36,938 bases of DNA, taken from contig QIAJ01000239.1 in assembly GCA_003225495.1 (NCBI GenBank), forward strand, positions 1 through 36,938, written 5' to 3'. The stretch comes from Acidobacteriota bacterium. Its GTDB lineage: Bacteria; Acidobacteriota; Terriglobia; Terriglobales; Acidobacteriaceae. The notes under the pieces were generated by a model that saw only the letters and a list, made by a program, of their open reading frames with translations, searched no databases and was not told the DNA's origin. Shown piece after piece: positions 3,495 through 11,106 of this stretch (the stretch's first letter is position 1; the number at the start of each line of letters is the position of its first letter). The position numbers and the translations under genes are program-made.

Positions 3495-5030
3495 ATGACG
3501 TTCCGAAGAGTCCTCTTTGTCGCACTCTTTTGTTGCTCATCCGTCGCATTCAGCCAGGATATGGCCTCGTTCGAAAAGCGAATCACCACCCGAAAACTTG
3601 CCAATGGACTAACCGTGATTATTTGCGAGCGTCCGGAAGCGCCAGTGTTCTCTTTCTTTACACATGTGGACGCCGGCTCCGTCCAGGACCCCATGGCTAA
3701 GACGGGTTTGGCACACATGTTCGAACACATGGCGTTCAAGGGCACGGACAAGATTGGTACTCGCGACTACGCGGGTGAGAAGGCTGCGCTTGCGAAAATT
3801 GAAATTGCTTATGCCGCCTATCTCGCGGAACGCGACAAGTTGGTGAACCGCGACGAGGCGAAGCTCAAGCAACTTGAGAAGGCATGGAAGGACGCGATCG
3901 CGGAGGCGGACAAATTTTCGGCGCCCTACAACAATGAGTTTGGCAAGATCGTGGAGAGTGAGGGTGGCGAGGGTATGAACGCCAACACCAATCACGACGA
4001 AACCAACTACTACTACTCATTTCCAATTAACCGGCTGGAGCTGTGGGCCTATCTCGAATCAGAGCGTTTCCTGCACCCAGTGATGCGCCAATTTTATAAG
4101 GAGCGCAACGTTGTCATCGAAGAGCGGCGCATGCGCACGGACAGTAATCCGATTGGGCGGCTGCTGGAGCAATTTACGTCGGCGTCCTTTGCGGCTCATC
4201 CTTATCATCGTCCAACGATAGGCTGGATGTGGGATCTGAATTCATTTTCGGCCACCGATGCGCAGAATTTCTTTGACCGCTATTACATCGCTCCGAATAT
4301 TGTGCTGACGGTGGTGGGCGATGTGAAAGCGTCCCAGGCGATGCCGATTATCGAGAAATACTTTTCGCGACTGCCCGCAAGGGCCACCCCCGACGAAGCC
4401 ACCACGACCGAGCCGCCGCAAAAATCCGAACGCCGTGTAGTTCTGCGTGAGCAGTCGCAGCCCATCTACATTGAGGGCTATCACCGGCCCGATTACCACA
4501 GCCCCGATGATGCCGTGTACGACGCAATCACCGACCTGATGTCGAATGGCAGGACATCACGTCTGTATCGCGCACTGGTACGCGACAAGCAGATCGCATC
4601 CGATTCGGCGGGATTTTCGGGATTGCCCGGAACCAAGTATCCGCACCTGTTTGCGTTCTACGCGGTGCCGATTCCGGGGCACAAGCCCGAGGAGATGGCG
4701 GACGCAATTCATGCTGAAATCGACCGCCTGAAAAAGGAAGACATCTCCGACGAAGAATTGAAGATGATCAAGACGCGCGCCAAAGCAGGACTGCTTCGTT
4801 CGCTCGGGTCCAACGAGGGATTGGCCTTCAACCTGGCAATATTTCAGGCTCGCTACGACGACTGGCGGGAATTGTTCCGCTCCGTGGATCGTATCGATAA
4901 GGTCACCAAGGCGGATGTCCGGCGGATTTCAAACCAGATCTTTGTGCCTGACAATCGCACGGTCGGGATGATCGAGTTCGCCGGCGGCCCGCCAGGACCC
5001 GGAGCACCACCACAAGGAGGTGCCCAGTGA
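3495..5030 (+). CDS. M16-family zinc metallopeptidase, catalytic (HxxEH) subunit
   Basis: Exported insulinase/MPP-type peptidase of 511 residues. A signal peptide covers about 1-20 ('CCSSVAFSQ'). The inverted zinc motif HMFEH is at H74-E77-H78, and the usual downstream acidic segment 'ERNVVIEERRM' supplies the third ligand. A charged insertion of about 60 residues sits between them, as in bacterial two-subunit M16 enzymes. Two M16 domains are evident, but the second lacks the Arg...Tyr substrate-binding pair ('RDKQIASDSAGF' stands where 'KGLAYS' would be). This fits a heterodimer with the next gene, as in Sphingomonas Sph2681/Sph2682 or mitochondrial MPP. The C-terminus is Gly/Pro-rich. The ATG has a GGAGGT ribosome site. 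Confidence 0.92.
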   Translation: MTFRRVLFVALFCCSSVAFSQDMASFEKRITTRKLANGLTVIICERPEAPVFSFFTHVDAGSVQDPMAKTGLAHMFEHMAFKGTDKIGTRDYAGEKAALAKIEIAYAAYLAERDKLVNRDEAKLKQLEKAWKDAIAEADKFSAPYNNEFGKIVESEGGEGMNANTNHDETNYYYSFPINRLELWAYLESERFLHPVMRQFYKERNVVIEERRMRTDSNPIGRLLEQFTSASFAAHPYHRPTIGWMWDLNSFSATDAQNFFDRYYIAPNIVLTVVGDVKASQAMPIIEKYFSRLPARATPDEATTTEPPQKSERRVVLREQSQPIYIEGYHRPDYHSPDDAVYDAITDLMSNGRTSRLYRALVRDKQIASDSAGFSGLPGTKYPHLFAFYAVPIPGHKPEEMADAIHAEIDRLKKEDISDEELKMIKTRAKAGLLRSLGSNEGLAFNLAIFQARYDDWRELFRSVDRIDKVTKADVRRISNQIFVPDNRTVGMIEFAGGPPGPGAPPQGGAQ

Positions 5031-6487
5031 AGCGCGTTCTCATCGCACTGGTCGGACTTCTCCTTATCGGAAGCAACATACAACTCTGGGCACAGGCTGC
5101 AAACTGGAAGGATATTCCGATTCCGCCCCTTCCTGTGTTTCATCCCGTCCAGCCGAAACGAATCGCGCTGCCGAACGGCATGGTGATCTTCCTTCAGGAG
5201 GATCACGAACTGCCTTTGATCGACGGCTTCGCCCGGATTCGCGGCGGTGGCCGTGCGGTTCCTGCCAGCAAAGAAGGATTAATCGATATTTACGGCGAGG
5301 TTTGGCGCACCGGCGGAACGAAAAGCCAGACTGGCGATCAGCTTGATGACTACCTGGAACAGCGCGCCGCTCATGTGGAGACTGGCGGCGGGATCGATTC
5401 GACCACTATTAGCTGGTCATGCCTGAAAGGCGATCTGGACGATGTTTTCAAAGTCTTCCAGGAACTGCTTCAGAATCCGGAATTTCGTGCCGACAAGATT
5501 CAGATCGCAAAGAAGGGTATGTACGACGGTATTTCCCGGCGCAATGATGATCCTGCCGGGATAGCCGCCCGTGAGGCCGCGAAACTGGCCTACGGCGCCA
5601 ACAATCCGTACGCGCGTGTACCCGAATACGCAGCTGTAGCCGCAGTTACTCGCCAGGATCTGGCAGAGTGGCACCATACCTACGTTCATCCCAACAACAT
5701 TATTCTCGGCGTGGTCGGCGACTTCGATTCAGCGGCGATGGAAGCGCGTTTGCGCCAGGCTTTCACAGCATGGGCCAAAGGTCCAATCGTGAAGGATCCG
5801 GAAATCGTGTTCACCACGAGTAAGCCCGGCAATTATTTGGTGGAAAAGACCGATGTCAATCAGAGCAACATCTACTTGGTCGGTCTGGGAACAACCCGCA
5901 AGGATCCGGACTATTACGCGATCTCGGTTTTCAATGAAGCCTTCGGCGGAGGTTTTTCGTCACGGCTCTTCAGCGATATCCGCACTACCAAAGGATTGGC
6001 CTATTCGGTAGGCGGCGGAATCGGTACAGGATGGGATCGGCGCGGGATGTTGCGTCTGGTAATGAGCACCAAGAGCGAGACCACCGGCGAGGCCATCCAG
6101 GCGCTGGACGAAGAAATTTCCGATCTGACCAAAAAGCCCATTACGGATGAGGAAATCAAACGAGCGAAAGATGCGATCCTGAATTCTTTCATTTTTCGCT
6201 TTGACTCCCCCGGCAAAGTGCTTCAGGAAAAGATGCTCTATGAGTTCTACGGCTATCCTCTCGGTTTCCTCGAGAACTATCAGAAAGAGATTGAGAAGGT
6301 GACCAAAGAAGATGTCGCCCGGGTCGCGGCAAAATATATGCATCGCGACCAGATGCCAGTGTTGGTGGTTGGCAATCCTGCCGAGTTCGACAAGACGTTC
6401 TTTTCTCTTGGCCCGGCGAACAAGATCGACATTACAATTCCTGCGCCACCCCCGGGGATGATGGGAGAACAGGGCGGACCGCAGTAG
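5027..6487 (+). CDS. M16-family peptidase, non-catalytic partner subunit
   Basis: Second subunit of the probable periplasmic M16 heterodimer, 486 residues, with a signal peptide (about 1-25, 'GSNIQLWAQA'). The position of HxxEH reads 'LIDIYGEVWRTGG', so zinc ligands are absent. The C-terminal half instead keeps the Arg...Tyr pair ('IRTTKGLAYSVGGG', about residues 315-330) that holds the substrate. The GTG start overlaps the upstream stop (GTGA, 5027-5030) and has a strong AAGGAGG at 5014-5020, so translation is coupled to the catalytic subunit. The split of catalytic and binding residues across two adjacent genes is what is known for heterodimeric bacterial M16B enzymes. The substrate is unknown. 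Confidence 0.9.
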   Translation: MKRVLIALVGLLLIGSNIQLWAQAANWKDIPIPPLPVFHPVQPKRIALPNGMVIFLQEDHELPLIDGFARIRGGGRAVPASKEGLIDIYGEVWRTGGTKSQTGDQLDDYLEQRAAHVETGGGIDSTTISWSCLKGDLDDVFKVFQELLQNPEFRADKIQIAKKGMYDGISRRNDDPAGIAAREAAKLAYGANNPYARVPEYAAVAAVTRQDLAEWHHTYVHPNNIILGVVGDFDSAAMEARLRQAFTAWAKGPIVKDPEIVFTTSKPGNYLVEKTDVNQSNIYLVGLGTTRKDPDYYAISVFNEAFGGGFSSRLFSDIRTTKGLAYSVGGGIGTGWDRRGMLRLVMSTKSETTGEAIQALDEEISDLTKKPITDEEIKRAKDAILNSFIFRFDSPGKVLQEKMLYEFYGYPLGFLENYQKEIEKVTKEDVARVAAKYMHRDQMPVLVVGNPAEFDKTFFSLGPANKIDITIPAPPPGMMGEQGGPQ

Positions 6488-6565: not shown

Positions 6566-7375
6566 ATGATCTGGGCCGGCAAGTCCCGTATGCTTTCCGG
6601 CTTCTTCTGTGTTCTTGCTGGACTCCTCGCCAATCAAGAATCTTCATTACAGAATTCACCCTTGCGAAGCGTCCACGTCTTTGTTGCCCTTGCTGACAAT
6701 GAGCATCAAGGCATCGTTCCGATTCCTGCACGCCTGGGCAACGGCTTAGATCCGGCTCACAACCTCTATTGGGGTGCAGCAGCCGGCGTTAAGACTTTCT
6801 TCATCCGCAGCGCCGACTGGTCGCTGGTGAATTGTGGCGGACGGCCGAAACCCGAAATCATGGAGCGCTGCATCTTCAAGCATCGGCGGGCGAACGTTTA
6901 TCTCGTAGCCGACGCTTATCGTGGCGATGAAATCCGGCAAACGCTTCTTGATTTTTTCAGTGCCGCGGCCGGAGCCAGTTCGGAGAGCATCGCCGTGCCA
7001 TCCGACTCATCCACAGTGATATTGGCAATCCGCGGAGGTTCGAATTTAGTAGCTTACGTCGGGCACGACGGGCTGATGGACTTTCATTTGCCGGTGATTC
7101 GCTCCAAGAAAAATGCAACCTCTCGGGATGCAATCATACTGGCGTGCGCGAGCAAACAATACTTTTCCGAGGCGTTGCGGGCTTCGGGTGCGAACCCTCT
7201 GTTGTGGACAACCGGCCTGATGGCTCCGGAGGCCTACACCTTGAAAGCCGCACTTGACGGTTGGATTGGCGCGGAAACGAATGAACAGGTCCACGAGCGC
7301 GCCGCTGCCGCCTATGACAAGTACCAGAAATGTGGCATGCGAGGTGCACGTCGACTATTCGCCAGCGGTTGGTAG
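6566..7375 (+). CDS. Secreted protein of unknown family with caspase-like His/Cys motifs
   Basis: A 269-residue protein with an N-terminal hydrophobic export signal (about 9-23) and no lipobox. I do not recognise a named family. The core reads like an alpha/beta caspase (clan CD/CHAT) fold. There is an early strand 'VHVFVALADNE', a helix after 'NVYLVADAYRG', then a strand ending in His ('LVAYVGHDG', H167). Next comes a strand ending in Cys ('AIILACAS', C194), and then 'PLLWTTGLMAPEAYT', which looks like the post-catalytic strand and helix of CHAT proteases. H167 and C194 are 27 residues apart, as expected for a catalytic dyad. This assignment is my inference. The gene has no ribosome site and a TATACT box six bases before its ATG. 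Confidence 0.75.
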   Translation: MIWAGKSRMLSGFFCVLAGLLANQESSLQNSPLRSVHVFVALADNEHQGIVPIPARLGNGLDPAHNLYWGAAAGVKTFFIRSADWSLVNCGGRPKPEIMERCIFKHRRANVYLVADAYRGDEIRQTLLDFFSAAAGASSESIAVPSDSSTVILAIRGGSNLVAYVGHDGLMDFHLPVIRSKKNATSRDAIILACASKQYFSEALRASGANPLLWTTGLMAPEAYTLKAALDGWIGAETNEQVHERAAAAYDKYQKCGMRGARRLFASGW

Positions 7376-7452
7376 AGATTAAGTGTCAACCGCGAGGGTT
7401 GGCATCTGTTTTATTACTTCCGGATGCGTCCGATAATGCGCATACTCAGTCT

Positions 7453-8376
7453 GTGCCCTCTGACGCTAACTCGGCGACAGTTTCTGCGTTCCTGGACTAT
7501 CTGCGCGTCGAGCGCGGATTAGCGAAGCTGACGATCTCGGCCTATACCAGCGATATCGTTCAGTTCGCGGAATTTCTGGAGAAGCGCAGGGCGGGCTTAT
7601 GCGAAGCGCGCCGCCAGGATGTCCGGGATTTTATTCAGGATTTGTTTTCCAACCAACTAGACGGCCGTTCTGTGGGACGAAAACTTTCCGCCATTCGGCA
7701 TCTTTATCGATATCTGCTTCTGGACGGAAAAATCCAAAAAGACCCTACGCTCAATATCGACTCGCCGAAGCAATGGAAGGTGCTGCCCAAATCGCTCAGC
7801 CGGGATGAGGTAGAGGCCACACTGAGTGGCTCCCAACCGCTAAACGGAAGTAAGCGGGCACTGGCTCTCGCGCTGCGTGACCGCGCCATGCTGGAGTTGC
7901 TTTATGCAGGAGGCGTGCGCGTTTCTGAGGTCGCTAACGCTCGCCTCGAAGATCTGAAACTGGAGATGGGTTACATCCTGGTGCGCGGGAAAGGCGACAA
8001 AGAACGCATGGTTCCGCTGGGGGTTCCGGCACAGCAGTCTTTACAGACTTACTTGAACAACAGCCGGGAAGTGATCGCCAAGCGAAGGAGTTCGCCGCTG
8101 CTCTTCCTGGGAGTTGGTGCGCGACGGTTGACGCGGCAGCGGGTTTGGCAACTGGTGGGAAAGGCATCTCTGGCCTCGGGACGTCATGCTAGCCCTCATA
8201 TGCTGCGGCACTCCTGCGCCACCCACATGGTGGAGAACGGCGCTGATCTGCGGACTGTGCAGACCATCCTGGGCCACTCTGACATTTCTACTACCCAGAT
8301 TTATACGCACGTTGCGCTCGACCGGCTGAAGAGCGTCTATACCAAACACCACCCGCGCGCCAAGACGAGAACTTGA
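7453..8376 (+). CDS. xerD: Tyrosine recombinase XerD-type
   Basis: Site-specific recombinase of the XerC/XerD family, which resolves chromosome dimers at dif. An N-terminal SAM-like DNA-binding domain ('[22 protein letters not shown]') precedes the catalytic domain. Catalytic residues visible are Arg in 'GGVRVSEV', Lys in '[13 protein letters not shown]', His/Arg in '[12 protein letters not shown]', His in 'LGHSDIS' and the nucleophile Tyr in 'TTQIYTHV'. The ending '[10 protein letters not shown]' is XerD-like. The frame is open back to an ATG at 7330, but that would overlap the preceding gene by 46 bases and add about 40 unrelated residues. I therefore prefer the GTG at 7453 (307 residues, the family's usual length). 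The stop overlaps the next start. Confidence 0.9.
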
Positions 8377-9293
8377 TGACGGTTGATCGAAAACAGCCCC
8401 GCACTCCTGTAGAACTCGCGACTGACTCGTTTCTGCGTCATTTGAGGGAGCGCAACGCTTCGGCACATACGATCAAGGCTTACGCCGGTGATCTGGACGC
8501 CTTTGCTCAATATGCAGGCGCAGGCGGGTGGAATGAGATTGATCACATCGCCATTCGCGGGTTTCTGTCGCGCCTCTATGACCAAGGCCTTGGGAAGGCT
8601 TCGGTCGCGCGGGCGCTTGCCGCGTTGCGATCGCTCTATCGATGGCTCGCACAGGAAGGTGTCGTGGAGCAGAATCCAGCGAAGCTGGTGTCCACGCCGA
8701 AGTTGCCCAAGAAACTGCCACGGGTTCCGACCATCGAAGAGATGAATTCTGTACTCGACGGGAAGATGCCGGAGGTCGCGTCTTTTCCGGAGCGGGACCG
8801 CTTAATGCTCGAATTGCTCTATGACTGCGGCATTCGAAATTCAGAACTGGTGGGCATCAACGTTGACGATATCCGGCTGAGTTCCGAAGCCATTCTGATT
8901 CGGGGAAAAGGGAAGAAGGAGCGCTACGTGCCATTTGGGAGCGCGGCGCGCGACGCCTTGGTAACTTATTTGCCATGGCGGCAGCAACTACTGGCGACGC
9001 TCAAGAGAACGAGCGCGGCACTGCTCATCAACCAGCGCGGCGGCCGACTGACAACCCGCAGCGTGGGACGCATCGTGAAGCGCATCGCCGTCGCCAAGGG
9101 TCTTTCACCCGACGTCCACCCGCACACCCTTCGCCATGCATTTGGGACGCACATGCTGGAAGAAGGGGCGGACCTGCGCGCGATCCAGGAACTGCTCGGC
9201 CATGAGCGTCTGGCGACCACGCAGCGCTATACACAGCTTTCAGTCAGGCACGTGATGAACGTGTACGATCAGACCCATCCGCGAGCGAAATGA
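8376..9293 (+). CDS. xerC: Tyrosine recombinase XerC-type
   Basis: Second Xer recombinase, 305 residues, directly coupled to the first: its ATG uses the last base of the xerD TGA (TGATG, 8374-8378). A TTG three bases earlier is an alternative start. The N-terminal core-binding domain ('[21 protein letters not shown]') is followed by the catalytic domain. The catalytic Arg is in 'CGIRNSELV', Lys in '[12 protein letters not shown]', His/Arg in '[13 protein letters not shown]', His in 'LLGHERLA' and Tyr in 'TTQRYTQLS'. The ending '[10 protein letters not shown]' is characteristic of XerC. XerC and XerD normally form a heterotetramer on dif. Having both in one overlapping unit would give matched expression. 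No dif-like site was recognised nearby. Confidence 0.9.
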
Positions 9294-9398: not shown

Positions 9399-10013
9399 AT
9401 GTTCCGTCTTATTCCGCGCGAGACCAAGTTTTTCGAGCTATTCGCCGAGCTTTCGACCAGCCTGACGGCGGGCGCGAAGCATCTGCGCTCCATCCTCGAA
9501 GACCCACACGATCTGAAACAGCGGGTGGCGGAGATGCAAGCGATCGAGCATGAAGGTGATCGGGCCACACACGCGATTATCGCTAAGCTCAACACTTCGT
9601 TTATCACGCCTTTTGACCGCGAGGACATTCATCGGCTGGCTTCGTCGCTCGATGATGTGCTCGATTTTGTGAACGCGGCCGCGGTTCGGTTGGTAATGTA
9701 CAAGATCTCGCAGCCTCCAGCTGCCGCAGCTGAACTTGCCGGACTGATCGTGCTGCAGGCGGAAGAATTGGCACAAGGCGTGTCGCTGCTCGAGAAAAAT
9801 GGTGGAGTTCTCAAACACTGCGACGAAGTCAACCGGCTGGAAGATGAAGCCGATGACGTCAGCCGCAAAGCGATTGCTGTCCTATTTGAAAGCGAAAAAG
9901 ATCCGATCCAGCTCATCAAGATGAAGGAGCTCTACGAGGTGCTTGAGTACGCGACCGACAAGGCCGAAGATGCTGCCAACGTACTGGAAGCGATCGTATT
10001 GAAGAGCGCCTAG
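9399..10013 (+). CDS. DUF47 / PhoU-like phosphate transport regulator
   Basis: A 204-residue all-helical cytoplasmic protein of the DUF47 (PhoU-like) family. The start 'MFRLIPRETKFFELF' is typical, as are the acidic metal-binding-like motifs 'EHEGDRATHAI' (about 47-57), 'TPFDREDIHRLASSLDDVLD' and 'LEDEADDVSRKAI'. Members are almost always encoded next to a Pit transporter and are thought to modulate it, as here: the Pit gene follows after 43 bases. A GGGAG ribosome site precedes the ATG. No part of the family appears to be missing. Confidence 0.92.
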   Translation: MFRLIPRETKFFELFAELSTSLTAGAKHLRSILEDPHDLKQRVAEMQAIEHEGDRATHAIIAKLNTSFITPFDREDIHRLASSLDDVLDFVNAAAVRLVMYKISQPPAAAAELAGLIVLQAEELAQGVSLLEKNGGVLKHCDEVNRLEDEADDVSRKAIAVLFESEKDPIQLIKMKELYEVLEYATDKAEDAANVLEAIVLKSA

Positions 10014-10056
10014 CTTCAATTCTCACCGAATCCATGCCATTCAGGAGCCCGTTCAG

Positions 10057-11106
10057 GTGAATGTAGATCTTATTCTGGTAGCCATCACGGTCGTGGTGGC
10101 TTTGATCTTCGATTTCCTGAACGGCTTCCACGATGCTGCGAATAGCATCGCCACCGTCGTTTCGACGCGTGTGCTTTCTCCTAAACTGGCAGTGGTGTGG
10201 GCTGCGGTCTTCAATTTTCTCGCGGCATTTTTATTGGGGACAGCGGTCGCCAAGACGATTGGGCGGGGGATGATTCGGCTGGACGATGTGAATCAGTATG
10301 TCGTTCTGGCCGGCTTGTTCGGCGCGATTGTATGGGACGTTTTGACCTGGTGGTGGGGGTTGCCAACTTCTTCTTCGCACGCTCTTATCGGCGGCTACGC
10401 GGGCGCCGCCATGATGCATGCGGCAGTGCATACCGGTTGGCGAACTTCGTTCTCTGTGATTATCGCCGCCGGATGGTACAAGACCCTGATTTTCATCGTA
10501 ATTGCGCCGGTGATGGGTATGACGCTTGGCCTGCTGTTCATGACGAGCGCGTACTGGTTGCTCCGCCGTCAGGCGCCGCAGCAAGTGGACGGGTGGTTTC
10601 GAAAGTTGCAACTGTTGTCCGCAGCCGCCTATAGCCTCGGGCACGGAGGCAATGATGCCCAGAAAACTATGGGCATCATCGCGGGCGCGATGTACACCGG
10701 TGGTTTCATGAGTAAGCAGGATATGCTTGCGAACTGGGGAAAGTATCACTGGCCGATTATTCTCGCGGCGCATGCCGCCATCGCCGCGGGAACCTATTTC
10801 GGTGGATGGCGCATCGTTCGCACCATGGGCCAGAGAATTACCAAGCTCAGACCACTCGGCGGTTTTTGTGCGGAAAGCGCTGGCGCCATCACTTTATTCG
10901 GGACCGCCCTTGCCGGCATACCGGTTTCGACCACGCATACCATTACCGGCGCCATTATCGGCGTGGGAGCTGTCCACCGCTTTTCGGCCGTGCGCTGGGG
11001 CGTGGCGAGGCAGATTGTGTGGGCTTGGATTGTCACGATACCCGCATCGGCACTCATGGCAGGCATCGGTTATTGGCTGATTCACATTTTTCAATCTCAA
11101 GCTTAA
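10057..11106 (+). CDS. pit: Low-affinity inorganic phosphate transporter (Pit family)
   Basis: Integral membrane symporter that imports phosphate (as a metal-phosphate complex with H+). It has 349 residues and about 10 hydrophobic segments. The two inverted PiT signature motifs are visible: 'FLNGFHDAANSIATVVST' near residues 20-38, and 'LGHGGNDAQKTMGII' in the second half. 'GLPTSSSHALIGG' and 'GIPVSTTHTITGAI' are the matching loop motifs. It is shorter than E. coli PitA (499), in line with the compact bacterial/archaeal PiT type. The start is GTG at 10057, with CAGGAG about 10 bases upstream. It forms an operon with the DUF47 gene. Confidence 0.94.
   Translation: MNVDLILVAITVVVALIFDFLNGFHDAANSIATVVSTRVLSPKLAVVWAAVFNFLAAFLLGTAVAKTIGRGMIRLDDVNQYVVLAGLFGAIVWDVLTWWWGLPTSSSHALIGGYAGAAMMHAAVHTGWRTSFSVIIAAGWYKTLIFIVIAPVMGMTLGLLFMTSAYWLLRRQAPQQVDGWFRKLQLLSAAAYSLGHGGNDAQKTMGIIAGAMYTGGFMSKQDMLANWGKYHWPIILAAHAAIAAGTYFGGWRIVRTMGQRITKLRPLGGFCAESAGAITLFGTALAGIPVSTTHTITGAIIGVGAVHRFSAVRWGVARQIVWAWIVTIPASALMAGIGYWLIHIFQSQA

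Follow-up and report, generated by a model that had tools for sequence, protein, structure and literature searches.

A small exported protein with a conserved His/Cys dyad, probable representative of a new clan-CD-like family without a pro-domain

Results

A His/Cys gene between peptidase and recombinase genes

The window, a stretch of 36,938 nucleotides (positions 1 to 36,938 of contig QIAJ01000239.1) from an Acidobacteriota soil bacterium (GenBank assembly GCA_003225495.1), carries on its forward strand a gene for a probably exported protein with a His/Cys dyad (Table 1). The codons of His167 (7064-7066, within YVGHDG) and Cys194 (7145-7147, within IILACAS) are separated by 27 residues; the open reading frame, the positions of both residues and their spacing are exactly those given in the original prediction, a reading of the DNA letters that had proposed a secreted, possibly caspase-like protein of no named family. 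The gene is present in a single copy in its own genome. Two genes for M16 peptidases (3495-5030 and 5027-6487; Pfam) end 78 bases upstream of it, and two tandem tyrosine recombinase genes follow it (7330-8376 and 8373-9293; Pfam), the first overlapping it slightly under a naive choice of start codon. Beyond the recombinase genes lie a PhoU-like (DUF47) gene and a PHO4 phosphate-transporter gene (9399-11106).

Table 1. Features of the His/Cys gene and of the protein that it encodes, in window coordinates
Feature	Position	Strand	Basis
Coding sequence of the exported His/Cys protein, 269 aa plus stop	6566..7375	+	ATG at 6566; stop ends at 7375
Alternative start of the coding sequence (Met9)	ATG 6590	+
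Probable N-terminal hydrophobic export signal, about residues 1-25	6566..6640	+	Hydrophobicity scan; helix 6-26, lower pLDDT
First strand (34-41) and D44-N45-x-x-Q48 loop; putative substrate-pocket residues	6665..6709	+	Conservation, AlphaFold2
N66-L-Y-W-G70 block, near-invariant, before the first core helix (75-81)	6761..6775	+	62-row conservation
Core strand and helix VYLVADAYRG...DFF (108-134), aligned with the C25 'vAD' strand and helix	6887..6967	+	AlphaFold2, hhalign
Strand 161-165 and G166-H167-(D/N)168-G169-L170-M171-D172 motif; H167 proposed catalytic base	7046..7084	+	Conservation; C25 GH alignment
Strand 188-192 and A193-C194-x-S196 motif; C194 proposed nucleophile	7127..7153	+	Conservation; C25 alignments (two of three)
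Strand 210-215 and TTGLMAPEAY loop; proposed equivalent of clan CD loop L5, by analogy with the account in PMC4357240	7193..7237	+	AlphaFold2

The surroundings of the gene differ between lineages. In seven Terriglobia loci, genes that we take from reading their sequences, and not from Pfam, to be LigD- and DUF72-like lie directly upstream of the family gene, with recombinase genes downstream; the window differs from these seven in having the M16 pair directly upstream instead. In the Dysgonomonas group, the gene sits in most of eight loci between genes that we read in the same way as TsaD- and CinA-like. Naive ORF calling at 64 loci gave 514 neighbour ORFs, among which no partner gene was common to many lineages; the neighbours are lineage-specific, and none of them points to a substrate. 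Two more Acidobacteriota lineages (L147, L151) also have a presumed DUF72-like gene no more than about 2.3 kb away from the family gene, perhaps by chance, and we judged this proximity, seen in three lineages, too weak to propose DUF72-like genes as functional partners.

A family outside the named ones, rare and scattered over phyla

The claim that the protein belongs to no named family was upheld: it matches no Pfam, NCBIfam or PDB sequence at E≤10. In particular, it has no match to PF01364 at E≤10, and none was found at E≤1 among 34 members of the family. Neither a clan CD model nor the U57 model was among the 11 Pfam families matched at E≤1 by any of these 34 members, and the one PADLOC family so matched is likewise no clan CD model. 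A 34-row family profile retrieved a single chain from the PDB sequences, a GTP pyrophosphokinase, at E 0.55. The strings GHNGLMD, GHDGLMD, NLYWGA and VALCDN did not occur in the literature searched, and among the literature matches listed, no title or opening of an abstract described the family. The two plasmid copies that carry an annotation are each called "hypothetical protein".

A scan of a species-genome collection confirmed 40 loci encoding relatives, whose record titles name Acidobacteriota, Bacteroidota, Verrucomicrobiota, Zixibacteria, GN15, Armatimonadetes and Aminicenantes (one contig is labelled Ignavibacteriae); relatives on plasmids come from three records, two of Bacteroidota and one of a gammaproteobacterium. 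Whole-genome searches found the family in at least 7 of 101 near relatives and at least 18 of 297 genomes of the window's phylum, in at least 4 of 296 genomes of the phylum of a Pedobacter genome, and in at least 3 of 194 genomes of the phylum of an Akkermansiaceae genome; these counts include each starting genome and are lower bounds, since only the best first-look candidates were scored. The distribution is thus rare and scattered, with a prevalence of about 1 to 7% of the sampled genomes in three phyla and occurrences in a few others. We also considered a mobile or defence-system gene and rejected it. A single one of 34 members had a PADLOC match, and that a weak one; there was no phage match; viral contigs contained 69 pattern stretches, none confirmed as a member; and 3 of 72,556 plasmid records had a member. 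These results and the neighbours described above do not support such a reading.

The family tree, of which 29 of 59 inner branches are open, clusters mostly by phylum (9 label changes by a quick method, against a least possible 7 and a shuffled mean of 27), which suggests an old family that has undergone losses and a few transfers. The window protein is under purifying selection: dN/dS was 0.07-0.14 in the three of five window pairs for which dS, itself saturated, was computable.

Near-invariant residues around the dyad

We examined conservation in an alignment of 62 rows, the window protein and 61 relatives, drawn from 86 scanned loci; it retains near-copies such as L158-L160. The 24 loci left out are duplicates, frameshifted (L006, L007, L048, L049) or truncated (L033, L036, L039). 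An earlier set of 41 sequences had dropped the same three truncated loci and kept L006 and L007 despite the frame change at their 3' ends. In these two Terriglobia copies (L006:5929-6870 and L007:5986-6778), the 3' ends lie in another frame, by real decay or by assembly error; the same split as in L006 was found in genome G001.

His167 is present in all 62 rows and Cys194 in 61, so the expected invariance of the dyad holds for the histidine and fails for the cysteine in one divergent member. The spacing between the two is tight (25-28 residues). The Asp noted between the histidine and the following Gly is real: position 168 is Asn in 35 rows and Asp in 27, and thus one or the other in all 62, and it is flanked by Gly at H-1 in 62 rows and at H+2 in 61. 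Ala precedes the cysteine in 51 of the 61 rows that have it. Overall, conservation reaches 95% or more at 31 positions, in rows from several phyla. Besides G166 and H167, the invariant residues are L42, N66, Y68, W69, G70, A115, G120, L170 and Y250; C194, D44, N45, Q48, W85, F200, Q254 and also L67 are each found in 61 rows, S196 in 60, and T215 and E222 in 56.

The sole row without the cysteine, on an Agarilytica plasmid (L060:5956-6834), has Arg in place of the proposed nucleophile and is still an open reading frame. It is also changed at D44, Q48, G58, G60, A117, M171, D172 and S196, in an alignment that is gappy over the 44-60 region, and it retains N66, Y68, W69, G70, Y250 and Q254. Because this member lost other near-invariant residues along with the cysteine, the putative pocket residues seem tied to Cys194. 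From this single sequence, which sits on a long branch, we infer an enzyme in decay that lost its pocket residues together with the nucleophile; more broadly, the copy may be a natural decayed or repurposed member.

A likely export signal and a compact architecture

Export, as originally predicted, is likely: a crude hydrophobicity test finds a strong N-terminal hydrophobic stretch in 58 of 62 rows. In three of the four exceptions (L011, L059, L150), such a stretch lies upstream of the start codon chosen by our script, leaving L148 as the only row lacking it. A lipobox-like motif occurs in 11 of 62 rows. Across the 62 rows, the region ahead of the core amounts to just 20 to 68 residues with the signal included, which leaves no room for a sizeable pro-domain. 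From the first core strand to the C-terminus, the window protein has 236 residues, compared with the 374 positions of the PF01364 model.

Predicted structures place the dyad after two successive strands

AlphaFold2 modelled the window protein from the 34-row alignment with pLDDT 90.2 and pTM 0.87, and the mature part of a second member, from an Akkermansia MAG, with pLDDT 89.0 and pTM 0.89. In the window model, strand 161-165 runs to just before G166-H167, and strand 188-192 to just before A193-C194. After the cysteine come helix 196-207, strand 210-215 and two more helices (223-234 and 239-254). The second model has the same order of elements without the 140-155 hairpin, and in both models the last strand residue stands two positions before the histidine and likewise two before the cysteine. 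The order of elements, with the dyad after two successive strands, agrees in both models with the one proposed. According to PMC4357240, strands 3 and 4 of the clan CD core sheet carry the dyad at their C-terminal ends, and a Gly is adjacent to the catalytic His; the modelled order of elements is the clan CD order described there, plus an extra strand or hairpin before the second core strand.

The comparison with known structures went the other way. Foldseek searches of the PDB with both models returned nothing at E≤0.001, in runs that included no positive-control clan CD model, and clan CD structures were absent from the best 50 of 445 matches for one and the best 50 of 585 for the other. Many of the best 50 rows are small GTPases or G-protein complexes, with TM-scores ≤0.37. 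A search of BFVD with one model also returned nothing at E≤0.001. The structural part of the original prediction therefore stands for the order of elements and not for the match to clan CD structures. This negative is the strongest evidence against a clan CD reading, weakened only by the missing positive control.

A weak profile likeness to C25

Clan CD holds the caspases, legumain, separase and the gingipains. Its caspase/haemoglobinase fold has a sheet of six strands between conserved helices, and its endopeptidases show strict P1 specificity. We built alignments of four of its families from Pfam matches at fetched loci: CHAT (20 of 20 loci), C14 (17 of 18), C25 (20 of 20) and C11 (10 of 20). 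A second C25 set came from another phylum (23 of 24 loci). C13 (legumain) was set aside, since partial matches alone were found, in 3 of 149 genomes, and no profile was built. The window's own genome has one C25 gene (G000:C119:56557-57570) and two CHAT genes (G000:C101:2902-3789 and G000:C104:104823-105635); it has no C14, C13 or C11 match at the cut-offs used.

With the 34-row family as query, hhalign aligned C25 at a probability of 64% (score 40.6), and with C25 as query at 33% (score 35.2). The 62-row profile with the signal removed scored 38.1 (54.5%), compared with 20.0, 32.5 and 18.2 for the best of 100 column-shuffled, ten-column-block-shuffled, and reversed and rotated profiles: none of the 300 controls reached the family's score. 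Against the 23-protein C25 set, the score was 32.7 (27%), which was reached by none of 100 column shuffles (best 24.1) and none of 100 block shuffles (best 32.4), the latter exceeded by just 0.3. All 43 C25 proteins together gave 36.9 (52%), compared with 21.4 and 32.8 for the best column and block shuffles. Eight unrelated control families, compared with the family or with the four clan CD sets, gave at most 4.6% and a score of at most 27.3.

For CHAT, C14 and C11, the probability against the family was at most 0.6%, and we dropped direct kinship with any of the three for lack of a profile signal in hhalign. Known clan pairs gave 80% (CHAT-C25), 68% (CHAT-C14), 25% (C14-C25), 18% (C14-C11) and 0.4% (CHAT-C11) in the same run, and since the last of these is a known pair, a low probability does not exclude kinship. 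The suggested comparison with clan CD profiles thus yielded a weak likeness to C25 that aligns the histidines, and nothing for the other three families.

The family was also compared with 536 single sequences, made up of 67 clan CD proteins and 469 neighbour ORFs no shorter than 120 aa. The best was a C25 protein (L104, score 35.3) and the next a neighbour ORF (31.3). As a group, C25 proteins stood above the background (Mann-Whitney p 5e-9, from sequences that are not independent), C14 stood slightly above it (p 0.01), and CHAT and C11 did not. The main C25 match covers 58 columns around strand-helix-strand-GH. The catalytic histidines are aligned in the C25 comparisons, and the cysteines in two of three extended alignments: in the run forced to full length and in that with L104, and not in the 23-protein replicate. 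The L104 alignment, over 109 columns, places GH167 opposite the C25 GH and C194 opposite the C25 Cys, and reaches the next strand. Block shuffles that keep the GH motif come close to the real scores (32.5 vs 38.1, 32.4 vs 32.7). The likeness to C25 is therefore above controls, weak, and centred on strand-helix-strand-GH.

Discussion

A putative exported cysteine peptidase

The window protein is a probable member of a new clan-CD-like family that has no pro-domain. The explanation we favour, with some confidence, is that it is a putative exported single-domain cysteine peptidase whose core is related to clan CD and is closest, by profile, to C25. The more detailed proposal, for and against which we see the case as evenly balanced, is that of a new clan CD peptidase family: small, exported and without a pro-domain, with H-N/D-G in place of H-G, a rigid near-invariant pocket and a distribution scattered over phyla, and making one specific cleavage in the envelope or outside the cell. 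We do not class the protein as a member of C25, because it has no Pfam match and a different domain layout, nor do we file it as a proven member of clan CD, because the fold comparison has so far been negative; it probably functions as a clan CD member does.

By the dyad rule of the clan, Cys194 would be the nucleophile and His167 the base. Of the residues other than glycine, Asn and Asp best accommodate the left-handed backbone found at the usual Gly, and one of them after the histidine may keep that conformation, which Gly normally allows. Placed beyond the end of the third core strand, His167 would activate Cys194, placed likewise beyond the fourth, for attack on a peptide bond, and the backbone amides of residue 168 and Cys194 would stabilise the oxyanion. 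According to PMC4357240, clan CD enzymes owe their S1 specificity to helix 1 or loop 1 together with loops 4 and 5. A corresponding P1 pocket could be shaped by the D44-N45-Q48 loop and N66-Y68-W69, both in the first of these regions, and by the TTGLMAPE loop after strand 210-215, in the last. The presence of two acids, D44 and E222 (the latter in 56 of 62 rows), leads us to guess that the P1 residue is perhaps basic. The predicted enzyme would be active on export, free or, in some relatives, as a lipoprotein, and its targets would be one or a few proteins of the envelope or outside the cell.

Alternative explanations

The same fold and dyad could serve in an enzyme that is no general protease and instead has one specific substrate in the envelope. 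Such a cysteine transpeptidase, ligase or amidase might act in protein maturation, on a cell-wall peptide or on a small molecule. The 31 highly conserved positions seem unusually rigid for a secreted protease with changing prey, and the missing room for a pro-domain and the rare, scattered distribution with lineage-specific neighbours fit this alternative as well. We nonetheless consider it unlikely, given that C25, the family with a detectable profile similarity, is a peptidase family and that nothing indicates a particular non-peptide substrate. It is quite improbable, in our view, that the protein has another alpha/beta fold, that convergence placed His and Cys at strand ends and that a shared hydrophobic-strand-GH-G motif drives the profile match. 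The Foldseek result, obtained with two confident models, argues for convergence, as do the motif-keeping block shuffles, which score up to 32.8 against the C25 sets. A motif alone would account less readily for a match that spans the vAD strand and helix through the histidine, and in one alignment continues through the cysteine to the next strand, for column shuffles that reach just 20.0 vs 38.1, or for an order of strands and helices that fits clan CD.

That the protein is a binding protein or pseudoenzyme, with His and Cys in structural roles such as metal or redox sites, seems to us very improbable. The Cys-less Agarilytica copy, still an open reading frame, could be taken this way; it changed other near-invariant residues too, as expected after a loss of activity. 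No other cysteine is 95% conserved (C256 is found in 52 of 62 rows), so that a conserved disulfide with C194 is not indicated.

Relation to known peptidases

If the favoured reading of a clan-CD-related cysteine peptidase is confirmed, clan CD gains a family in a very compact exported form without a pro-domain, one that shows how little is needed around the dyad and that, as far as tested, is absent from Pfam, NCBIfam and PADLOC. It would be the second case, after YabG, of an Asp (or Asn) following the catalytic His, and a site-specific enzyme that needs no activation could be a useful tool.

YabG, a sporulation protease (MEROPS U57) proposed for clan CD, has His-Asp and Ala-Cys motifs (PMC12445089), and in C. 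difficile the Asp after the His is needed for activity (PMC12445089, PMC10681294). The family shares His-Asp (27 of 62 rows) and Ala-Cys with it, two short motifs that do not show kinship. YabG is described from endospore formers (PMC12445089) and, unlike the family, has CheY-like and SH3-like domains (PMC10681294); its His-Cys spacing is 46 (C. difficile residues 161 and 207), as against 27 in the window protein.

CHAT, metacaspase/C14 and clostripain/C11 resemble the family in the His-then-Cys dyad, with Ala before the cysteine in 32 of 46 rows scored, and differ from it in a His-Cys spacing of 37-75. Of all the clan CD rows, 49 of 66 have Gly at H+1 and none has Asn or Asp there, whereas in the family this position is never Gly. 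In C25 (gingipain-type, PF01364), the residue at H+1 is Gly or Ser, in contrast to the Asn/Asp of the family, and the spacing is 33-58 rather than 25-28; RgpB, as described in PMC4357240, has an N-terminal subdomain, an Ig domain and a long pro-domain, none of which the family has. The two are alike in the succession of a strand, a helix, a strand ending in GH and a strand ending in Cys, and in the Gly before the histidine, which is found in 20 of 20 C25 rows and 61 of 61 family rows scored.
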